Assembly (NCBI GenBank): GCA_022486625.1
Contig: JAKVKH010000002.1
Coordinates: 62,001 to 126,000, forward strand
Length of the DNA stretch: 64,000 bases
Source of the DNA: Butyrivibrio sp.
GTDB lineage: Bacteria; Bacillota; Clostridia; Lachnospirales; Lachnospiraceae
Direction of reading: 5' to 3'
Made by a program: the position numbers and the translations under genes. The notes under the pieces are model-generated. The model was given only the letters and a program-made list of their open reading frames with translations. It did no database searches and was not told the DNA's origin. Positions 3,304 to 63,151 of this stretch are shown here, in pieces (position 1 is the stretch's first letter; every line of letters starts with the position of its first letter).

Positions 3304-3356
3304 CAATAATATACAAAAAGAACGGCGAAAATTGTAGATTTTTTTAGTAGTGTGAA

Positions 3357-3386
3357 TTACAATGGTATGGGGCAAAACTATATAAT
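3357..3386 (+). promoter_or_regulatory. Promoter upstream of the CdaR-type regulator
   Basis: TTACAA (3357-3362) and a perfect TATAAT (3381-3386) are separated by 18 bases, about 57 bases before the ATG at 3444. Confidence 0.6.
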
Positions 3387-3443
3387 AGCGCAGAGAGGCT
3401 CATGATGTGATGAGCATATATTCTTGCGCGGAAAGAGTGACGG

Positions 3444-5376: not shown

Positions 5377-6262
5377 TACATTTTTTTATACCATCGGACA
5401 GGGATTTCGTAATCTGACCAGAAACAGATGGTATACACTGGCATCAATCGCAACTATCAGCGCCTGTCTGTTTCTCTTTGGAATGTTTTACTCGATTGTG
5501 ACCAACTTCCAGAATGTGGTAAAGACGGCAGAGGAAGGGGTTTCTGTTACCGTCTTTTTTGATCAGGGAATTACGGAAGATCAGATCCTTGCGGTAAAGA
5601 GTGATGTGGAAAAGCGTACGGAGGTGCGCAAGGTAGATTATGTTTCTGCAGACGATGCATGGAACGGTTTTAAAAAAGAGTATCTTGGAGAATATGCGGA
5701 TGGATTTACAGAGAATCCGCTGGCAGACTCTGCCAACCTTCAGATTTATCTGAAAGATGTATCCATGCAGCCGGCGCTGGTTACTTACCTGGAGTCCATT
5801 AATGGTGTCAGAGAGGTAAATCGTTCGGAGGTGACAGCAACAACTCTCAGTGGCGTGAATAAGCTGATTGCGTATATTTCGCTTGGAATCATCGTAATCC
5901 TGCTGGCAGTATCCATCTTCCTGATCAGTAATACTGTTACCATCGGTATTTCCGTACGAAAAGAGGAAATTAATATCATGAAATATATCGGCGCGACGGA
6001 CTTTTTCGTCAGGGCGCCGTTTGTCATTGAGGGAATTCTGATCGGTATTATCGGATCGCTGGTTCCGCTGGGAATTATTTATGTAATTTATAATAAGACA
6101 ATTCTTTATGTAAGCGGTAAGTTTTCTATGTTGAGTACTTTCCTCACTTTTTTGCCGGTGGACACCATATTTAATAATCTGGCGCCGATTTCTGTGGCAA
6201 TCGGTGTGGGAATCGGATTTATCGGAAGTGCAGTAACCGTACGCAGACATTTGCATGTATAA
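5366..6262 (+). CDS. ftsX: Cell-division membrane protein FtsX
   Basis: About 298 residues with the FtsX layout: a short cytosolic N-terminus (MRISTFFYTIGQGFRNLTRNRW), TM1 at about 22-45, an extracellular domain (about 50-165), then three TM segments in a C-terminal FtsX/MacB domain with the typical SVRKEEINIMKYIGATDFFVRAPF stretch. The ATG at 5366 overlaps ftsE and gives the canonical start; an upstream ATG at 5333 lies deep within ftsE and is rejected. FtsX relays FtsE action to an extracellular hydrolase, and the next gene encodes a good candidate for that partner. Confidence 0.95.
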   Translation: MRISTFFYTIGQGFRNLTRNRWYTLASIATISACLFLFGMFYSIVTNFQNVVKTAEEGVSVTVFFDQGITEDQILAVKSDVEKRTEVRKVDYVSADDAWNGFKKEYLGEYADGFTENPLADSANLQIYLKDVSMQPALVTYLESINGVREVNRSEVTATTLSGVNKLIAYISLGIIVILLAVSIFLISNTVTIGISVRKEEINIMKYIGATDFFVRAPFVIEGILIGIIGSLVPLGIIYVIYNKTILYVSGKFSMLSTFLTFLPVDTIFNNLAPISVAIGVGIGFIGSAVTVRRHLHV

Positions 6263-56235: not shown

Positions 56236-57411
56236 ATGTACGAAATAGGAAGTGAATTTCATTATGAGGAGCCGGCAAAGGAGGAAGATCTGCTGCAGCT
56301 GTTTAAAAGGTTTCATGGAGTAAAGATGCTGCGCTGCGGAAGAGATGCCATCGGTCTGATTGCAGATGATATTATCTGTCATCAGGCGGGAATGGAAGGA
56401 AAGAACTTTACCGCTTTTCTGCCGGCACTTTCCTGTGATTCCATGTACCTGCCGTTTGAGGTAAGGGGCTTTGACGTGAAATTCTATGCGCTTCACGAGG
56501 ATCTGACGGTCTGCATGGAGGATCTGGAGAAAAAACTGTATGGCGTAAAGTACCCGGTCGTACTGACCATGAATCTGTACGGCTGCGCAGACCAGAGAAA
56601 ATATAATGAAATGCTTCGAAGGAAGTATCCGCAGCTGGTACTGGTAGAAGATGTCACGCATCTGCTCCTTAATCCTGAACTGTATGATACAGAGGCTGCG
56701 GATTACTGTATTGGTAGCATCAGAAAGTGGATGGGAGTGCCTGACGGTGCAGTGGTGATCAGCAGCAGTGGAATGATCAGGGCAGCCATGGAAACAGAGG
56801 AAACGAAGTTCACCGGACTCAGGGCGCAGGCGCAGCGCCTGAAAGCAGATTATCTTGATCTTGGAGATCCGGGGCTGAAGACCAGATTCAGGGGAATGCT
56901 TTCCGAAGCGGAGAATTCGCTGGAAGATGGACGTCATCCGCATGAAATGACAGCGCTGAGTCGTGAAGTCCTTTCTCATGTGGACATTACCAGAATGCGT
57001 TATCGCAGATCCGTGAATTACCATTGTCTGTATACTCTTCTTGAAGGGATGGCAGAGTGCGGACAGTATTTCAGACTTCTTCCGGAGGTTCCGGAGGAGA
57101 TTACTCCATTTACACTGCCGGTGATCCTGAATCCGGACAGGTTGCCGGAGAAAGAGAGTATGAGAGTGCAGCAGGCAGGACAGATCCGGGATGCATTTGA
57201 ACGCCGCCTTGCGGCAAGAGGTGTATATGCACCGGTACTCTGGCCAATTGATGACAGAGCCCGCAGCGCGTGCGCGGTTTCTGCAGAGGTATCGGATCAG
57301 ATGCTGGCGTTCTGGATTGATCAGAGGTATGACCGTTTTGATATGGAACATGTGGCGGAGGTGTTCCGTGAGGAACTGCTGAGAACAGGAGGCGCAGAAT
57401 CATGCGATTGA
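56236..57411 (+). CDS. Diverged PLP-dependent aminotransferase-like protein (DegT-like)
   Basis: 391 residues. The fold-type-I layout is suggested by LRCGRDAIGLIADDI near residue 34, LTMNLYGCADQRKYNEMLRRKYPQLVLVEDVTHLLL (a conserved Asp in VEDVTH, normally contacting the pyridine ring), and IGSIRKWMGVPDGAVVISSSG, in which Lys at about 165 fits the PLP Schiff-base position. Similar SIRK-PDGA proteins occur in Lachnospiraceae polysaccharide loci. It could aminate a keto-sugar or be a non-catalytic relative. The GT2 downstream overlaps its stop by 10 bases. It is not a standard PseC. Confidence 0.65.
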   Translation: MYEIGSEFHYEEPAKEEDLLQLFKRFHGVKMLRCGRDAIGLIADDIICHQAGMEGKNFTAFLPALSCDSMYLPFEVRGFDVKFYALHEDLTVCMEDLEKKLYGVKYPVVLTMNLYGCADQRKYNEMLRRKYPQLVLVEDVTHLLLNPELYDTEAADYCIGSIRKWMGVPDGAVVISSSGMIRAAMETEETKFTGLRAQAQRLKADYLDLGDPGLKTRFRGMLSEAENSLEDGRHPHEMTALSREVLSHVDITRMRYRRSVNYHCLYTLLEGMAECGQYFRLLPEVPEEITPFTLPVILNPDRLPEKESMRVQQAGQIRDAFERRLAARGVYAPVLWPIDDRARSACAVSAEVSDQMLAFWIDQRYDRFDMEHVAEVFREELLRTGGAESCD

Positions 57412-58451
57412 GCGTGATCGTACCCGTTTACAATATGGCATCCGGGGATAAACTGACCTGGTGTCTGGATTCACTGGTTCATCAGACGCTTCCGGACGGG
57501 AGTTATGAGATTATCGCAGTAGATGACTGCTCTGCGGATCAGTCATTCCAGATTCTGCAGCAGTATGAAAAGGAATTTCCGGGCCGCTTTCGTGCGGTTC
57601 ATTCTCCGGAAAATCATCATCAGGGGGGTGCCAAGAACATTGGCCTGGCAATGGCACAGGGCGAATGGATCGGCTTTATTGATGCGGATGACTGGGTAAC
57701 ACCGGATTACTACGAACGACTCCTTAACAGAGCGATGCAGACCGGTGCGGATATGGTGGGCTGTGATTACAGCCTGACCGGGGAACACAGCATGAAGGTT
57801 GGGCAGATCGTTCATAACAATACATCGGAGCAGACCGGTGTCATGAATACGGAGAAGTACAGAAAACTCCTGCTGGATACCGGAAGTCTTGTCGTGAAGA
57901 TCTACAAGCGGTATATTATTTTCGGAGCGCAGGACGATGGCACGCTGCAGAAGATTTTTCCTGAAGACATTTTCTATGAGGACAATGCCATCAGCAACAC
58001 CTGGATGCTTCGTGTAAAACATTTTGAATATATTGCAGAACCGTTGTACTATTATTATCAGCATGATGCTTCCACCGTGCATACGATTTCAAGGAAAAAT
58101 CTGGAGGATCGCATGACAGCGGGGCGCATGATCATTGCAGAGGCGAAAGACCATCAGTATCTGGATATGTATCGCCCTGAAATTGAATTTATGTATACGG
58201 TACTGTTCTATGTCAATACACTTTTTTCTGCAATGCCGAAGGCATCACATATCCGCGGCTGTTACGGCTTCTGCCGGACGCTTGGGGAAGAAATGAAGAG
58301 GCAGTTCCCGGAGTTTCAGCAGAATCCCTATTATCAGGAGCGGATTCATCCGGAGGAAAAAAAGCTGATTGCCATGCAGATGAAATCACATCTGTTATTC
58401 TATTGCTATTACAGACTATTGTGGTTCTACCGCGGTCTGAGAAAGAAATAA
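57402..58451 (+). CDS. GT2 glycosyltransferase
   Basis: 349 residues. LSVIVPVYNMASGDKLTWCLDSLVHQTLPDGSYEIIAVDDCSADQS, HHQGGAKNIGLAMAQGEWIGFIDADDWVTPDYYERL (metal-binding DADD) and a C-terminal helical region (LLFYCYYRLLWFYRGLRKK). It resembles capsule GT2 enzymes. It begins inside the end of the PLP-fold gene and lies 9 bases before a GT52-like gene, suggesting a shared pathway. Confidence 0.9.
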   Translation: MRLSVIVPVYNMASGDKLTWCLDSLVHQTLPDGSYEIIAVDDCSADQSFQILQQYEKEFPGRFRAVHSPENHHQGGAKNIGLAMAQGEWIGFIDADDWVTPDYYERLLNRAMQTGADMVGCDYSLTGEHSMKVGQIVHNNTSEQTGVMNTEKYRKLLLDTGSLVVKIYKRYIIFGAQDDGTLQKIFPEDIFYEDNAISNTWMLRVKHFEYIAEPLYYYYQHDASTVHTISRKNLEDRMTAGRMIIAEAKDHQYLDMYRPEIEFMYTVLFYVNTLFSAMPKASHIRGCYGFCRTLGEEMKRQFPEFQQNPYYQERIHPEEKKLIAMQMKSHLLFYCYYRLLWFYRGLRKK

Positions 58452-58460
58452 TTCAATTAT

Positions 58461-59582
58461 ATGCATGAGAGAATCTATGTATGCCACACCTTTTACCATG
58501 TATATGTGGCATGCCTCAAGGAATTTCATATTTTACATCAGACGGGGAGTGAGACAGACCGTGTGGCAGAGGGAAGCAGTGCTGCCGGGCGGGCAACACT
58601 TGTTCTTTCGAAGATGTCCAATCATTTTGACGGCATGATTGACCGGGCAAGAGAATGCGGATTGTTCGAGGAAGTGATCGAGTTTGATGAAAAGGAAGAT
58701 ACCTTTTTTCCTGAACTGAAGCCGCTTCGCACGGATACCGGAAATCTTGTCCGCAATATGATCAACCGGATCCGTTTCTGCAGGCGTTTTGCCCAGCTGC
58801 AGGAACGCTATATTCCGGTAAACTTCCGTTTGTATCGGGATATTTATGTTTTCTGCGATTCTGATCCGATCGGCTATTATCTTAATGCACAGAAAATCCG
58901 CTACCATGCACTGGAGGATGGACTTAACTGCATTAAATACGGCGATACTGCGCGTTTTGACAATAACGGACACTTCGCATTCAAGGCGTGGATGGCTTCC
59001 ACCGGGCTGATCTTCATACAGAACGGTTACGGCCGTTACTGCATTGACATGGAAGTGAATGACATCGGTCTTCTTGATTACCCGTGCAAAAAATATATTG
59101 AACAGCCAAGGGAAGCGCTGGTGCAGGAGCTGACGCAGACGGATAAGAATCTGATGCTCAGGCTCTTTATCTCCAATATGGATGCACTGCAGAGAAAGCT
59201 GGAAGAAGGTAAAAACAGACCGCGGGTGCTCATTCTGTCAGAGCCGCTCTGCGATCTTGAAACCAGACAGCAGATCTTCCGCGATCTGGTGGAATTATAC
59301 GGAACGGTAGACGGGCAGCAGGCGGTGGTCATGATCAAGCAGCACCCGAGGGATTATCTGGATTATAAAACACTTTTCCCGGATGTGATTCTGCTGGACG
59401 GAACATTCCCGATGGAAATGCTGAACTTTATACCGGATCTTCGTTTTTCAAGACTTGTATCCGTATATACGGTAGTGGATTCCATTCATTTTGTAGATGA
59501 AAAGATATTCCTGGGTGATGATTTCATGGACCGTTATGAGGCACCGGAGATCCACAGGATCAACGAACAGATCAGGGAGTAA
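58461..59582 (+). CDS. GT52-like (sialyl/nonulosonyl-type) glycosyltransferase
   Basis: 373 residues. Early IYVCHTFYHVYVACLKEFHIL, YHALEDGLNCIKYGD near residue 150, RVLILSEPLCDLETRQQIFRDLV, VVMIKQHPRDYLDYKTLFPDVILLDGTFPMEMLNF and VVDSIHFVDEKIFLGDD match the GT52/LOS sialyltransferase group, which uses CMP-sugar donors; the Glu-Asp and His-Pro motifs are the catalytic and CMP-binding ones there. With CMP-pseudaminate made upstream, a pseudaminyltransferase role is plausible. The acceptor is unknown. Confidence 0.8.
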   Translation: MHERIYVCHTFYHVYVACLKEFHILHQTGSETDRVAEGSSAAGRATLVLSKMSNHFDGMIDRARECGLFEEVIEFDEKEDTFFPELKPLRTDTGNLVRNMINRIRFCRRFAQLQERYIPVNFRLYRDIYVFCDSDPIGYYLNAQKIRYHALEDGLNCIKYGDTARFDNNGHFAFKAWMASTGLIFIQNGYGRYCIDMEVNDIGLLDYPCKKYIEQPREALVQELTQTDKNLMLRLFISNMDALQRKLEEGKNRPRVLILSEPLCDLETRQQIFRDLVELYGTVDGQQAVVMIKQHPRDYLDYKTLFPDVILLDGTFPMEMLNFIPDLRFSRLVSVYTVVDSIHFVDEKIFLGDDFMDRYEAPEIHRINEQIRE

Positions 59583-59646
59583 GCAGAGCTTCAGATCAAA
59601 ATTATCGGATCTGACCCTTCAGATTCAGACAGGAACAGGAAAAGAC

Positions 59647-61410
59647 ATGCGTAAGATTTATAAGAAGATGATGGTACTGCTGGATAAAAAACAGAAGTGC
59701 CAGATGATAGGAATTGTATTCATGATGCTGATCGGAGGTATTCTGGAATCCCTTGGAATCTCCCTGATCGTCCCGGTTATGACGATTGTCATTGATCCGG
59801 CGGCAGTGCAGACCAGTAAATACATGAGCGTGATCTATAACGGACTTCACATGACGGATACCACGCAGTTTGCGGCGGTGATCATGGTGGCGCTGATTCT
59901 GGTTTTTGTCATCAAGAATATTTTCCTTTATTTCATGAATGTACTGCAGCTGAGATTTGTCTATACCAATCAGTTCGCAACATCTCAGCGTATGATGATC
60001 AATTTCATGAAAAGGCCTTATGAATATTATCTGAATGCAGATACTTCTGTTATTCAGCGTAATATTACTTCTGATGTCAATAATATGTATGGTCTGATTT
60101 TAAGCTGCCTGCAGCTGATCAGTGAGATCATTGTATTTGTATGTCTGGTTGCAATCCTGCTGATTCAGGATGTGAAGATGACCACGTTTATTGCGGTGCT
60201 TCTGATCTCGGTTCTTCTGATTATCAAATATATCATCAAACCCGTGATGATCAGAGCAGGACAGGATAACCAGGAATATTACAGCGGCCTGTACAAATGG
60301 ATTGATGAGTCAGTGACCGGAATCAAGGAGATCAAAATCTCTGCAAAGGAAAACTATTTTATCAACGGATACGGACAGTGCGGTGCCGGTTATGTGAATG
60401 CGGTACAGAAGTATAACCTGTATAATTCCACACCGCGTCTTCTGATTGAAACTGTCAGCATTGCCGGCATGGTCGGCTATATGCTCTTTGTCATGATGCA
60501 GGGAACCGATATGGCGCATATGCTTCCGCAGATCACAGTTCTGGCTGCAGCGGCTGCAAGGCTTCTGCCGAGTGCAAACCGTATTAATAATTACCTGACT
60601 TCCATTGCCTATTTTGAACCGTTTTTCATGAATGTCAGTGATAATCTGCAGGCAGAAATTCATGACAATCAGGTTACCTATGATCCGACAGCCTATCAGG
60701 TCAGCCCTGAAGTGGAAAAACTTCCGGTGACGCAGAAGATTGAACTGAAGAACATTACCTATAAATATCCGAATTCAGAAGCATACGTACTGGATCACGC
60801 CAACATGACAATCCCGGTTGGTAAATCCGTTGGTATTGTAGGCACTTCCGGCGCCGGAAAAACGACCATTGTGGATGTTATGCTGGGACTGTTAAAGGCG
60901 GAAAAGGGAGAAATTCTGGCAGATGGTGTGGAAGTCCGAGACCACTACCAGTCATGGCTGAAGAATATCGGGTATATTCCGCAGACTATTTTCATGATTG
61001 ATTCCACGATCCGTAAGAATGTGGCATTTGGTTACCCGGATGCGGATATTGATGAGAATAAGGTGTGGCAGGCTTTGAAAGAGGCACAGCTGGATGAATA
61101 TGTAAGGAGTCTTCCGGAAGGGCTGGATACGAAGATCGGAGAACGCGGCATTCGCCTGTCCGGTGGTCAGCGGCAGCGTATCGGTATTGCACGTGCGCTG
61201 TTCGAAGATCCGGAAGTACTGGTACTGGATGAGGCAACCTCTGCGCTTGATAACGAGACGGAAGCGGCAATCATGGATTCCATTAATCGTCTTCATGGCC
61301 GCAAGACGCTCATCATCATTGCACATCGTCTGCAGACCATCGAGAAGTGTGACATTGTCTATCGCGTTCGCGGCGGCCAGGTAGTGACGGACCGCATCGG
61401 CGCACGTTGA
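59647..61410 (+). CDS. MsbA/PglK-like ABC half-transporter (putative glycolipid flippase)
   Basis: 587 residues: six transmembrane helices (about 20-300) fused to an ABC domain (about 365-587) with Walker A VGTSGAGKTTIVD near residue 400, QTIFMIDSTIRKNVAFG, signature LSGGQRQRIGIARAL and Walker B VLVLDEATSALDNE. It would act as a homodimer and resembles exporters flipping lipid-linked oligosaccharides. ATG 59647 (after AGGAAAAG) is preferred; an in-frame ATG at 59497 lies inside the previous gene and would add 50 residues. It may export the completed repeats made by this cluster. A GC-rich repeat block starts right after the stop. Confidence 0.9.
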   Translation: MRKIYKKMMVLLDKKQKCQMIGIVFMMLIGGILESLGISLIVPVMTIVIDPAAVQTSKYMSVIYNGLHMTDTTQFAAVIMVALILVFVIKNIFLYFMNVLQLRFVYTNQFATSQRMMINFMKRPYEYYLNADTSVIQRNITSDVNNMYGLILSCLQLISEIIVFVCLVAILLIQDVKMTTFIAVLLISVLLIIKYIIKPVMIRAGQDNQEYYSGLYKWIDESVTGIKEIKISAKENYFINGYGQCGAGYVNAVQKYNLYNSTPRLLIETVSIAGMVGYMLFVMMQGTDMAHMLPQITVLAAAAARLLPSANRINNYLTSIAYFEPFFMNVSDNLQAEIHDNQVTYDPTAYQVSPEVEKLPVTQKIELKNITYKYPNSEAYVLDHANMTIPVGKSVGIVGTSGAGKTTIVDVMLGLLKAEKGEILADGVEVRDHYQSWLKNIGYIPQTIFMIDSTIRKNVAFGYPDADIDENKVWQALKEAQLDEYVRSLPEGLDTKIGERGIRLSGGQRQRIGIARALFEDPEVLVLDEATSALDNETEAAIMDSINRLHGRKTLIIIAHRLQTIEKCDIVYRVRGGQVVTDRIGAR

Positions 61411-61420
61411 TGGGAGGGAC

Positions 61421-61563
61421 GGCTGCCGGCGGGTGGAATCCGCACCGTCGGCTCGCTCCCGCTCTGTCGTACGTCGCAGCGGTACATAACGCTGCATAGG
61501 ACGCAGCGTAAGTACCGGCACGTACGAAAGGCCTCCTTGTGCGGATTGCACCCGCTGGCAGCC
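61421..61563 (-). repeat. Structured repeat element, copy 1 (minus orientation)
   Basis: Outer arms 61421-61445 and 61539-61563 pair at 23 of 25 positions. The core, read leftward from 61538 to 61443 (96 bases), begins AAGGAGGCCT and ends CCGACGGTG. Internal stems include CGGTAC/GTACCG, ACGCTGC/GCAGCGT and an 8-base TCGTACGT/ACGTACGA. Compared with copy 2, the core aligns without gaps at 75 of 96 positions by hand count. Confidence 0.75.
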
Positions 61564-61818
61564 TGACATTTCCATGAATGTGTGCCGGTGCGGCGGGACG
61601 CTTCGCCGCTGTCTTGAAATGTGTCGCATATACGCACACCCAGCTGCGAACCGCGAAGCGGAGCAGCGTCCGCAAAAGCAGCCTTACGGAGTATACGAAA
61701 CACGTTGCATCACACGCGACCAGCTGCCGCAGGCAGCGCTGTCGCCCGGAAGTCTTTACCTGTTTTTAATACACAATACAAAACCGAATCACAAAATGAA
61801 ACAATAACGTCATACGAA

Positions 61819-61989
61819 CCGCGGGGAAAGAGCGGAAGGCCGGCGCGTGAATTTACACAAGGAGGCCTTCTGAGCGCGTCAGTACTTGCGCTGCGTACTT
61901 TGCAGCGCTATGTACTGCTACGCAGCGAAGCAGAGCGGGAGCGTGCCGACGGTGTAAATCACGCGCCGGCCGGTCCCCCTTCCCCGCGG
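61819..61989 (+). repeat. Structured repeat element, copy 2 (plus orientation)
   Basis: Outer arms 61819-61858 and 61952-61989 pair almost fully but differ in sequence from the arms of copy 1. The 96-base core (61859-61954) again begins AAGGAGGCCT and ends CCGACGGTG. Stem partners changed together relative to copy 1: CAGTAC/GTACTG and GCGCTGC/GCAGCGC. This is the mark of a conserved fold rather than of sequence. Confidence 0.75.
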
Positions 61990-62011: not shown

Positions 62012-63151
62012 ATGCAGAAGAAGAGAGAGGCTAATTTTGAAATGCTGAGAGTGATTGCCATGATTATGGTCGTGGTGCTCCATTACCTTTCACACTCAGA
62101 TTCGCTGATAGAACTCGGCGTTCCATTGAGCGCCGTAAAAATTACGGGATCGCTGATTGAATCTTTCTGCATTGTCGCGGTTAATGTCTGGGTTCTGATC
62201 AGTGGGTATTTCCTGTCACAGTCCGGATTTAAACTGAAACGTATTCTGCAGATCATCTGCGAAATCTACTTTTATACAGTGGCGATATCACTGGTCATGC
62301 AGGGGGTAAATGTCTACCATGTAAAATCAGGAGATACGATATTCAAGACTGTACAGTATTTTTTCCCGATTGAGTCAGAACATTACTGGTTTGCAACTTC
62401 CTATGTCATGATGTATGTGCTGTCTCCGGTTCTGAACAAGGGAGTGCAGTATCTGAGCCGAAAACAGCTGAAGACAACAATTATCGGGCTGCTTCTGTGG
62501 TTTTGCCTGATCAAGAGTTTTGTTCCGGTAAATTTTCCGACAGATGACTTCGGATATGGACTGAAATGGTTTCTGTGTCTGTATCTGATTGCCGCCTATA
62601 TCCGTAAATATGATGTGAAGATTGTAACAGGTGCCGGCAGAAGTGCACTTTTATATGTGTTTTCCTGCGGGCTGATCTTTGTCATGACGCTGGTGTTGCA
62701 GATGATCAATACCCGTTATGGCAGATTTGAATATTATTTTACTGTAACATCGCATTATAATTTTATTCTGTGTCTGACCGGTGCGCTGGGGATCTTTTCG
62801 CTGTTCCGGTATCTGAAGATCAGAGAGGGCATAGCGGCAAACATAGCCAGAACGGTAGCACCGCTGACTTTTGGTGTTTATCTTTTTCATGAACATCTGG
62901 AAATCAGGATCAGATGGCTGTTCTGGATGGAAAGTCTTTTCGGGAAGGTACCGACTGTTAATGTGGCAGCATTTCTGCTGCATCTGATTCTGAGTGTTGC
63001 AGTCATTTTCCTGGCTGGAATTATGATCGACTGGATCCGTACCATGTTCTTTGAATTTGTTGCCAGAAAACTGCAGGGAAGCAGGCTGTTCCGTTCTCTG
63101 AACCGCCTTGACAGAGAACTCCGGTTTCAGGAGGACAGACCGTCGGTGTGA
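62012..63151 (+). CDS. Acyltransferase-3-type membrane protein
   Basis: 379 residues with about ten transmembrane segments. NFEMLRVIAMIMVVVLHYLSHSD provides the conserved Arg and His, with VNVWVLISGYFLSQSGFKLKRIL as the second family motif, and FGVYLFHEHLEIR near residue 285. This branch (WcaK/Wzx-neighbour O-acyltransferases of Gram-positive capsule loci) O-acetylates polysaccharide. The start follows AGGAGGAG. It comes just after the repeat block and is a second acyltransferase in the region besides the one at 34.8 kb. Confidence 0.85.
   Translation: MQKKREANFEMLRVIAMIMVVVLHYLSHSDSLIELGVPLSAVKITGSLIESFCIVAVNVWVLISGYFLSQSGFKLKRILQIICEIYFYTVAISLVMQGVNVYHVKSGDTIFKTVQYFFPIESEHYWFATSYVMMYVLSPVLNKGVQYLSRKQLKTTIIGLLLWFCLIKSFVPVNFPTDDFGYGLKWFLCLYLIAAYIRKYDVKIVTGAGRSALLYVFSCGLIFVMTLVLQMINTRYGRFEYYFTVTSHYNFILCLTGALGIFSLFRYLKIREGIAANIARTVAPLTFGVYLFHEHLEIRIRWLFWMESLFGKVPTVNVAAFLLHLILSVAVIFLAGIMIDWIRTMFFEFVARKLQGSRLFRSLNRLDRELRFQEDRPSV

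Follow-up and report, generated by a model that had tools for sequence, protein, structure and literature searches.

REPs and REPINs are dispersed intergenic palindromes, often arranged as inverted pairs and thought to be non-autonomous, and one group of REPs forms hairpins with irregular stems, as outlined in the parts of the literature drawn on here (PMC8266576, PMC3733652). The CGTC-tagged REPs (Di Nocera et al. 2013, PMC3733652) are described there as carrying CGTC beside the palindrome, as forming head-to-head pairs and as having no dedicated transposase known; their stems are 8-9 bp with loops of 4-5 nt, and the CGTC-1 dimers of H. neapolitanus lie within longer palindromes. CGTC REPs were reported from Proteobacteria, Chlorobi, Bacteroidetes, Spirochaetes and Thermotogae, and the main text of that paper makes no mention of Clostridi-, Lachnospir-, Butyrivibrio, Roseburia or Eubacterium. 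In the Bacillus cereus group, bcr1 is characterised, in the part of PMC2267715 used here, as a dispersed repeat of ~150-170 bp with a conserved structure, and a title cited by that paper calls it mobile-element-like.

The window analysed here, the whole stretch of 64,000 nucleotides, contains two hairpins, each probably a copy of a non-autonomous palindromic repeat that is mobile, behaves like REPs and REPINs, is much larger and belongs to a sequence family of its own. The hairpin core of the first copy lies on the minus strand at 61439..61544 (94.9 bits with covariance model R1). Its outer stem P1 is formed by a 5' arm at 61539..61563 and, in element orientation, a 3' arm at 61421..61445, an inverted-repeat pair of 25 nt with 92% complementarity. 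CGTCCC can be read on the minus strand outward of this 3' arm. The second copy lies on the plus strand with its core at 61853..61958 (103.8 bits), and its P1 arms at 61824..61853 (5') and 61956..61985 (3') form an inverted-repeat pair of 30 nt that is 77% complementary. A spacer (61564..61823) separates the two inverted copies, which are divergent with the 5' ends of the elements facing each other. The genes on either side are outside the element and both on the plus strand: an ABC transporter gene upstream (ABC_membrane, ABC_tran; 59497..61410) and an acyltransferase gene downstream (Acyl_transf_3; 62012..63151). The ABC transporter gene follows two genes for glycosyltransferases (Glycos_transf_2, Glyco_transf_52), which suggests a surface-polysaccharide cluster at 57402-61410. 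The ORFs at 58461-59582 and 59497-61410 overlap and therefore the second one probably starts later.

The first-pass annotation of this stretch had aligned the two cores without gaps at 75 of 96 positions, had listed the core pairs 23/58, 30/50 and 21/62 as changed on both sides, and had given each copy its own paired arms; the sequences bear out all of this. It had also pointed to an AAGGAGG in both copies, which is indeed present in the window and is not conserved in an alignment of 10 copies. Its impression that similar peptide-like translations recur in other genomes did not hold up: the 137-aa frame over the plus copy, the one frame tried, gave two proteins at E<=1e-3 that were 100 and 96% identical, in a search that is insensitive for so short a piece. 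A coding gene was rejected because the ORF spanning the plus copy matches just these two near-identical proteins.

From the outside to the inside, the element consists of clade-specific ends, the outer stem P1, a conserved head and a mini-hairpin. The conserved head measures 105-106 nt, and the palindrome including the arms is longer. P1 varies among copies in both sequence and length, with pairing kept. In the core of the plus copy, the head is composed of a long bulged stem P2 and the mini-hairpin P3, GC[GNRA]GC. P2 has the form CGTC-RGTACTTA ... TTAGTACY-GCTACG, and apically it has either a variable stem of 8 bp and a GTNTTTT-type loop or a shorter variant. No gene lies within the repeat unit.

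Both window copies fold well. With RNA parameters their z-scores were -7.33 (plus copy) and -7.36 (minus copy), and none of 200 shuffles equalled either. With DNA parameters and the core alone folding was weaker: the core strand gave -1.87 for the plus copy, which 11 of 200 shuffles reached, and -4.11 for the minus copy (0 of 200), and the opposite strand gave -2.00 and -4.90, respectively. The two folds have 26 pairs in common, of which six changed two-sidedly and none one-sidedly. Covariation among further copies was judged against shuffle controls. In the 10-copy alignment 89.3% of cells are paired and two-sided changes affect 19 of 29 pairs; none of 500 shuffles reached the observed value on any of the five measures, and sliding the pairing partners reduced every covariation measure. 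An alignment of 87 distinct copies from named genomes, which was fitted to the structure and hence is biased toward it, has 90.0% of cells paired and 467 cells with a two-sided change against a shuffle mean of 153, with four of the five measures at 0/500 shuffles and the fifth at 2/500. Covariation is strong in both alignments.

The family is widespread. A DNA search found three copies in the window's own genome and copies in 7 of 79 genomes of the genus, own genome counted. In that genome R1, which was built from 10 aligned copies, gave four strong matches and, in addition, two with E values of 0.23 and 0.37. At E<=1e-3 it matched 157 of 397 genomes of the window's family (139/334 genera), with about nine candidates scored per genome in this survey. 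For 20 genomes from the top of the R1 list, 150 candidates were scored, which gave 7 to 144 matches each, some of them the weaker antisense hit of the same copy; overall, match counts range from 1 to 144 per genome. In a class-wide sample R1 matched 12 of 391 genomes, 11 of them in the window's family. The twelfth (G853) has one match, at E 3.1e-9, and 6% contamination, and this match may be contamination. The exact core pattern occurred in at least 120 stretches of named genomes, and among the 80 matches listed the titles were Lachnospiraceae, Butyrivibrio, Agathobacter, Lachnoclostridium, [Clostridium] symbiosum, Eubacterium, Eubacteriales and uncultured bacterium. The host family is taken as Lachnospiraceae from these titles. 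As far as sampled, the repeat is apparently confined to this one bacterial family. The exact core pattern had no matches in viral contigs, and blastn found none for the plus copy of the window in plasmids and phages and none for a stretch of G188 (genomes and loci are cited by our own G and L numbers) in plasmids. Carriage by phage or plasmid was rejected on these grounds. Paper searches in the open-licence PMC literature gave no earlier description, and within these searches the repeat family is apparently undescribed.

The element is mobile. In G188, the 105-nt core is identical in 13 of 18 checked copies, which lie at different loci. Between murB and rapZ, G003 carries an insert of ~183 bp that includes both arms, and the corresponding site in G065 is exactly empty, with flanks that are 94-95% identical to those of G003. 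Any target duplication is at most 2 bp (CC) at this one site. The gene is present in 77 of 79 genomes of the genus, and among 30 loci compared R1 matches G003 alone. Of the G003 loci compared with G065, 10 of 13 have a copy at the same place, and therefore much of the family is old there. Four G003 copies without an intact counterpart in G065 were examined, and the insertion is clean only at murB-rapZ. Between ilvN and ilvC, the gap holds a copy solely in G003 (30 loci from 75 genomes; the match of L277 lies elsewhere). A small GGGCG...CGCCC hairpin remains there in G065, which could be a remnant of the element or a pre-existing hairpin. At the third G003-specific site G065 has a deletion remnant of the element, and the fourth (L331) is empty in G065 without an obvious remnant. 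The ilvN-ilvC site had suggested that copies land in the loops of host hairpins; this did not hold at the clean murB-rapZ site, where the arms arrived with the insert. L195 and L140 have an insertion common to two MAGs at the orthologous place, with near-identical arms. The first-pass suggestions of a dispersed repeat in Lachnospiraceae and of a hairpin-based mobile unit are supported by the number of copies and genomes matched, by the identical cores at different loci and by the clean empty site.

Placement was examined in 183 de-duplicated elements, 138 of them with enough flank, with genes taken as simple longest ORFs. It is mostly intergenic: 132 of the 138 cores are not overlapped over more than 60 nt by an ORF longer than 150 aa, and six are. 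Neighbouring elements within 700 bp, after de-duplication, formed 13 divergent, 9 tandem and no convergent pairs. No bias for either replication strand was seen (35 vs 40). Tandem arrays with copy spacings of ~137 to 187 bp occur in G188 (L058, L059, L060, L061). On one contig (L063, G447:C21) matches at 613-717, 3309-3424 and 5999-6103 each occupy their own gap in a run of large genes, and two of these genes resemble paralogues. In two different genomes (L189 and L332) a copy lies directly upstream of a rapZ-like gene, for L189 by reading of the gene start; this could be chance or a preferred site.

The arms change in pairs. In 10 orthologous copy pairs from G003 and G065, paired positions comprised 29 double changes with pairing kept, 7 with pairing lost, 78 one-sided changes and 566 unchanged. 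Four of these copy pairs (L309/L310, L313/L316, L320/L307 and L327/L311) account for 28 of the 29 pairing-kept doubles; the main BLAST pieces of their flanks show 86-96% identity. In the first three, both outer arms are rewritten, with 0, 3 and 7 differing columns in the inner ~84 nt, and in L327/L311 the head itself has 20 differing columns. The 77 full-length copies of G188 show 10 distinct double states (nine of them paired) against 37 distinct one-sided states, and single-change intermediates, one or more each, were also observed for 5 of these double states. Counted by cells, the 63 distinct G188 copies contain 38 paired doubles, 11 unpaired doubles, 41 G.T, 43 A.C, 38 other, 3 one-sided still pairing and 3029 unchanged. 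Related copies are not independent and these arm-change counts are hence descriptive; they fit templated correction inside the palindrome and equally selection for pairing.

The palindromic repeat would move as follows. The unit would fold into a hairpin when single-stranded, most likely at replication. An enzyme encoded at another place would bind and cut the strand-specific head, with its bulged P2, GTNTTTT-type loop and GC[GNRA]GC mini-hairpin, and would paste the unit into another intergenic site. No transposase was found, which counts against this reading, and the moving step is therefore inferred. Less certainly, the arms may stay complementary by selection plus templated repair in the palindrome, by which a change in one arm is copied to the other. 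Single-strand transposition might predict a strand bias, so the even distribution over the replication strands counts against this explanation. We tentatively go one step further and suggest that the element could be a self-templating mobile hairpin: a conserved head recognised by a putative single-strand-DNA enzyme, and arms rewritten pairwise by arm-to-arm copying, giving fast turnover of arm sequence and length while pairing persists.

It is somewhat unlikely that the element is instead an undescribed structured RNA, either a dispersed small RNA or a cis-regulatory leader, with genes spread by another mobile element and covariation driven by selection on the RNA fold. The strong covariation in both alignments would agree with this, and so would the strand-specific bulge and loop. 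The loop of the mini-hairpin looks RNA-like (GNRA-type): its third position is a purine in all 146 located copies, under a search pattern that fixed the first G and last A and left 34 of 180 copies not located. A gene starts shortly downstream of the plus copy, and the same holds for some G003 copies, which would suit a leader. Mismatch types point in both directions. As a control, 20 loci of relatives (genus and order) that match Rfam RF00011 below the gathering score, and which we take to be RNase P from their conserved sequence, gave 96 G.T against 15 A.C, and 39 against 14 once pairs with more than 20% G.T were dropped. With the predicted consensus structure, alignment A3 of the element gave 37 against 39, whereas A4 gave 67 against 20, or 40 against 20 without its one G.T-rich pair. 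With the model structure, leaving out one loop-closing pair with G.T in the majority of rows, the counts were 45 against 47 (A3) and 39 against 44 (A4). G.T is thus about as frequent as A.C in A3 with either structure and in A4 with the model structure, which speaks against an RNA. The 40 against 20 in A4 stands beside 39 against 14 in the control, and the argument for DNA and not RNA is therefore weak for A4. Moreover, template-switch correction of the arms, if real, would lead one to expect equal G.T and A.C even with a head that acts as RNA. Among young G188 copies, the one-sided distinct states are 12 G.T and 6 A.C (cells even, 41 vs 43). An earlier version of this test by union of folds failed its control and was discarded.

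Other observations also argue against a structured RNA. There is no clear orientation preference relative to neighbouring genes among the 138 elements (++ 42, -- 52, -+ 18, +- 17, with 9 at edges), and a genome can hold up to 144 matches. No Rfam model matched the window at gathering score, and at E<=10 three microRNA models and one snoRNA model appeared far below their thresholds, at chance level. A known RNA family was rejected on this basis. On balance we lean towards an element that acts as a DNA hairpin. The first-pass annotation had left the choice between a structured RNA and a mobile unit; the latter half is supported, and for the former the mismatch counts are mixed and the loop is GNRA-like.

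A classical MITE, with terminal inverted repeats recognised by a DDE transposase and the hairpin head as cargo, is unlikely. Outer inverted repeats that are specific to clades can be read by eye (GAGTGTCAAAAGCCC in G188, plus several others). A ~480-bp unit of G115 (loci L045-L050) contains two hairpins in inverted orientation and has CTGYAG-type terminal inverted repeats; both ends are present in 5 of the 6 units printed, and TA stands at both outer ends in 4 of 6. These ends would suit a MITE, yet it is the head that is conserved between clades and not the ends, and no target duplication longer than 2 bp is seen at the one clean insertion.

It is very unlikely that the element is a true GTAG-type REP/REPIN mobilised by a RAYT (Y1 tyrosine transposase). 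Dispersed intergenic palindromes, divergent pairs and the lack of a long target duplication would be expected of it. The core also has CGTC before the upper P2 stem and CTACG (GTAG on the other strand) after it. However, the unit is several-fold larger than 20-40 bp and does not follow the enzyme. Y1_Tnp is present in 81 of 157 element-bearing against 138 of 240 element-free genomes (Fisher p 0.26), it is found in 8 of 20 copy-rich genomes with no match in the other 12, and none of 18 Y1 loci carries a copy within up to ~1.5 kb on each side. Y1/RAYT was therefore rejected as the general enzyme. No transposase-like neighbour recurs either: when ORFs of at least 110 aa were clustered across 80 loci (up to 8 kb each), the most widely shared groups came from 6, 5, 4, 4 and 4 loci, and their sequences read as signalling and ABC-transporter proteins. 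At L061, the 2.2 kb between the inverted copies contain two ORFs that reach 80 aa (105 and 203 aa); neither was recognised as a transposase by eye, and an autonomous version at this place was rejected on that reading. Least probable of all are static, vertically inherited sites such as chromosome-organising or termination palindromes, which would explain the G003 loci kept in G065 and the site common to L195 and L140 but are contradicted by the lineage-specific murB-rapZ insertion, by identical cores at different loci and by match counts that range so widely between genomes.

The repeat is carried by about two fifths (157/397) of the genomes sampled from the Lachnospiraceae, a family of common gut bacteria, and some of these genomes have more than 100 matches. 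Repeat copies are a hazard for annotation and assembly; in G184, for example, two copies begin 12 bases from a contig start. The repeat family is also a natural model for the movement of large palindromes and the maintenance of their pairing, and it points to a putative hairpin-acting enzyme.

Compared with known systems, the element resembles MITEs in being short and non-autonomous, and its ends in several clades read by eye as inverted repeats, but these ends differ by clade around a conserved inner head, and any target duplication at the one clean insertion is at most 2 bp. Integron attC sites are single-strand hairpins in which structure is conserved more than the arms; the present element differs from them in having a conserved 105-nt head. 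With bcr1, which belongs to another bacterial group and is likened here by its description only, it has the dispersed distribution and conserved structure in common. The CGTC REPs are similar in having CGTC beside the palindrome and head-to-head pairs, and they form a parallel because they too are described as lacking a known transposase (PMC3733652). Near the outer 3' end of the palindrome, CGTC occurs in 23 of 165 copies, compared with 304 of 10398 background 12-mers, related copies being counted singly. In contrast to them, as they are characterised there, our element does not combine a terminal unpaired CGTC with an 8-9 bp stem and a 4-5 nt loop. By analogy, the closest model for its movement would be a REP/REPIN mobilised by a RAYT, as far as these are described in the parts of PMC8266576 and PMC3733652 used here. 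The two are alike as dispersed, intergenic, non-autonomous palindromes that occur in inverted pairs. They differ in size, 20-40 bp against a 105-nt head with long variable arms, and in the association with a Y1 transposase, which is lacking here; in addition, the tag of GTAG REPs is described as terminal and unpaired, whereas the tag-like tetranucleotides of the element lie within a helix, CTACG in P2. Although it fails their defining features, the repeat family works like REPs and REPINs.
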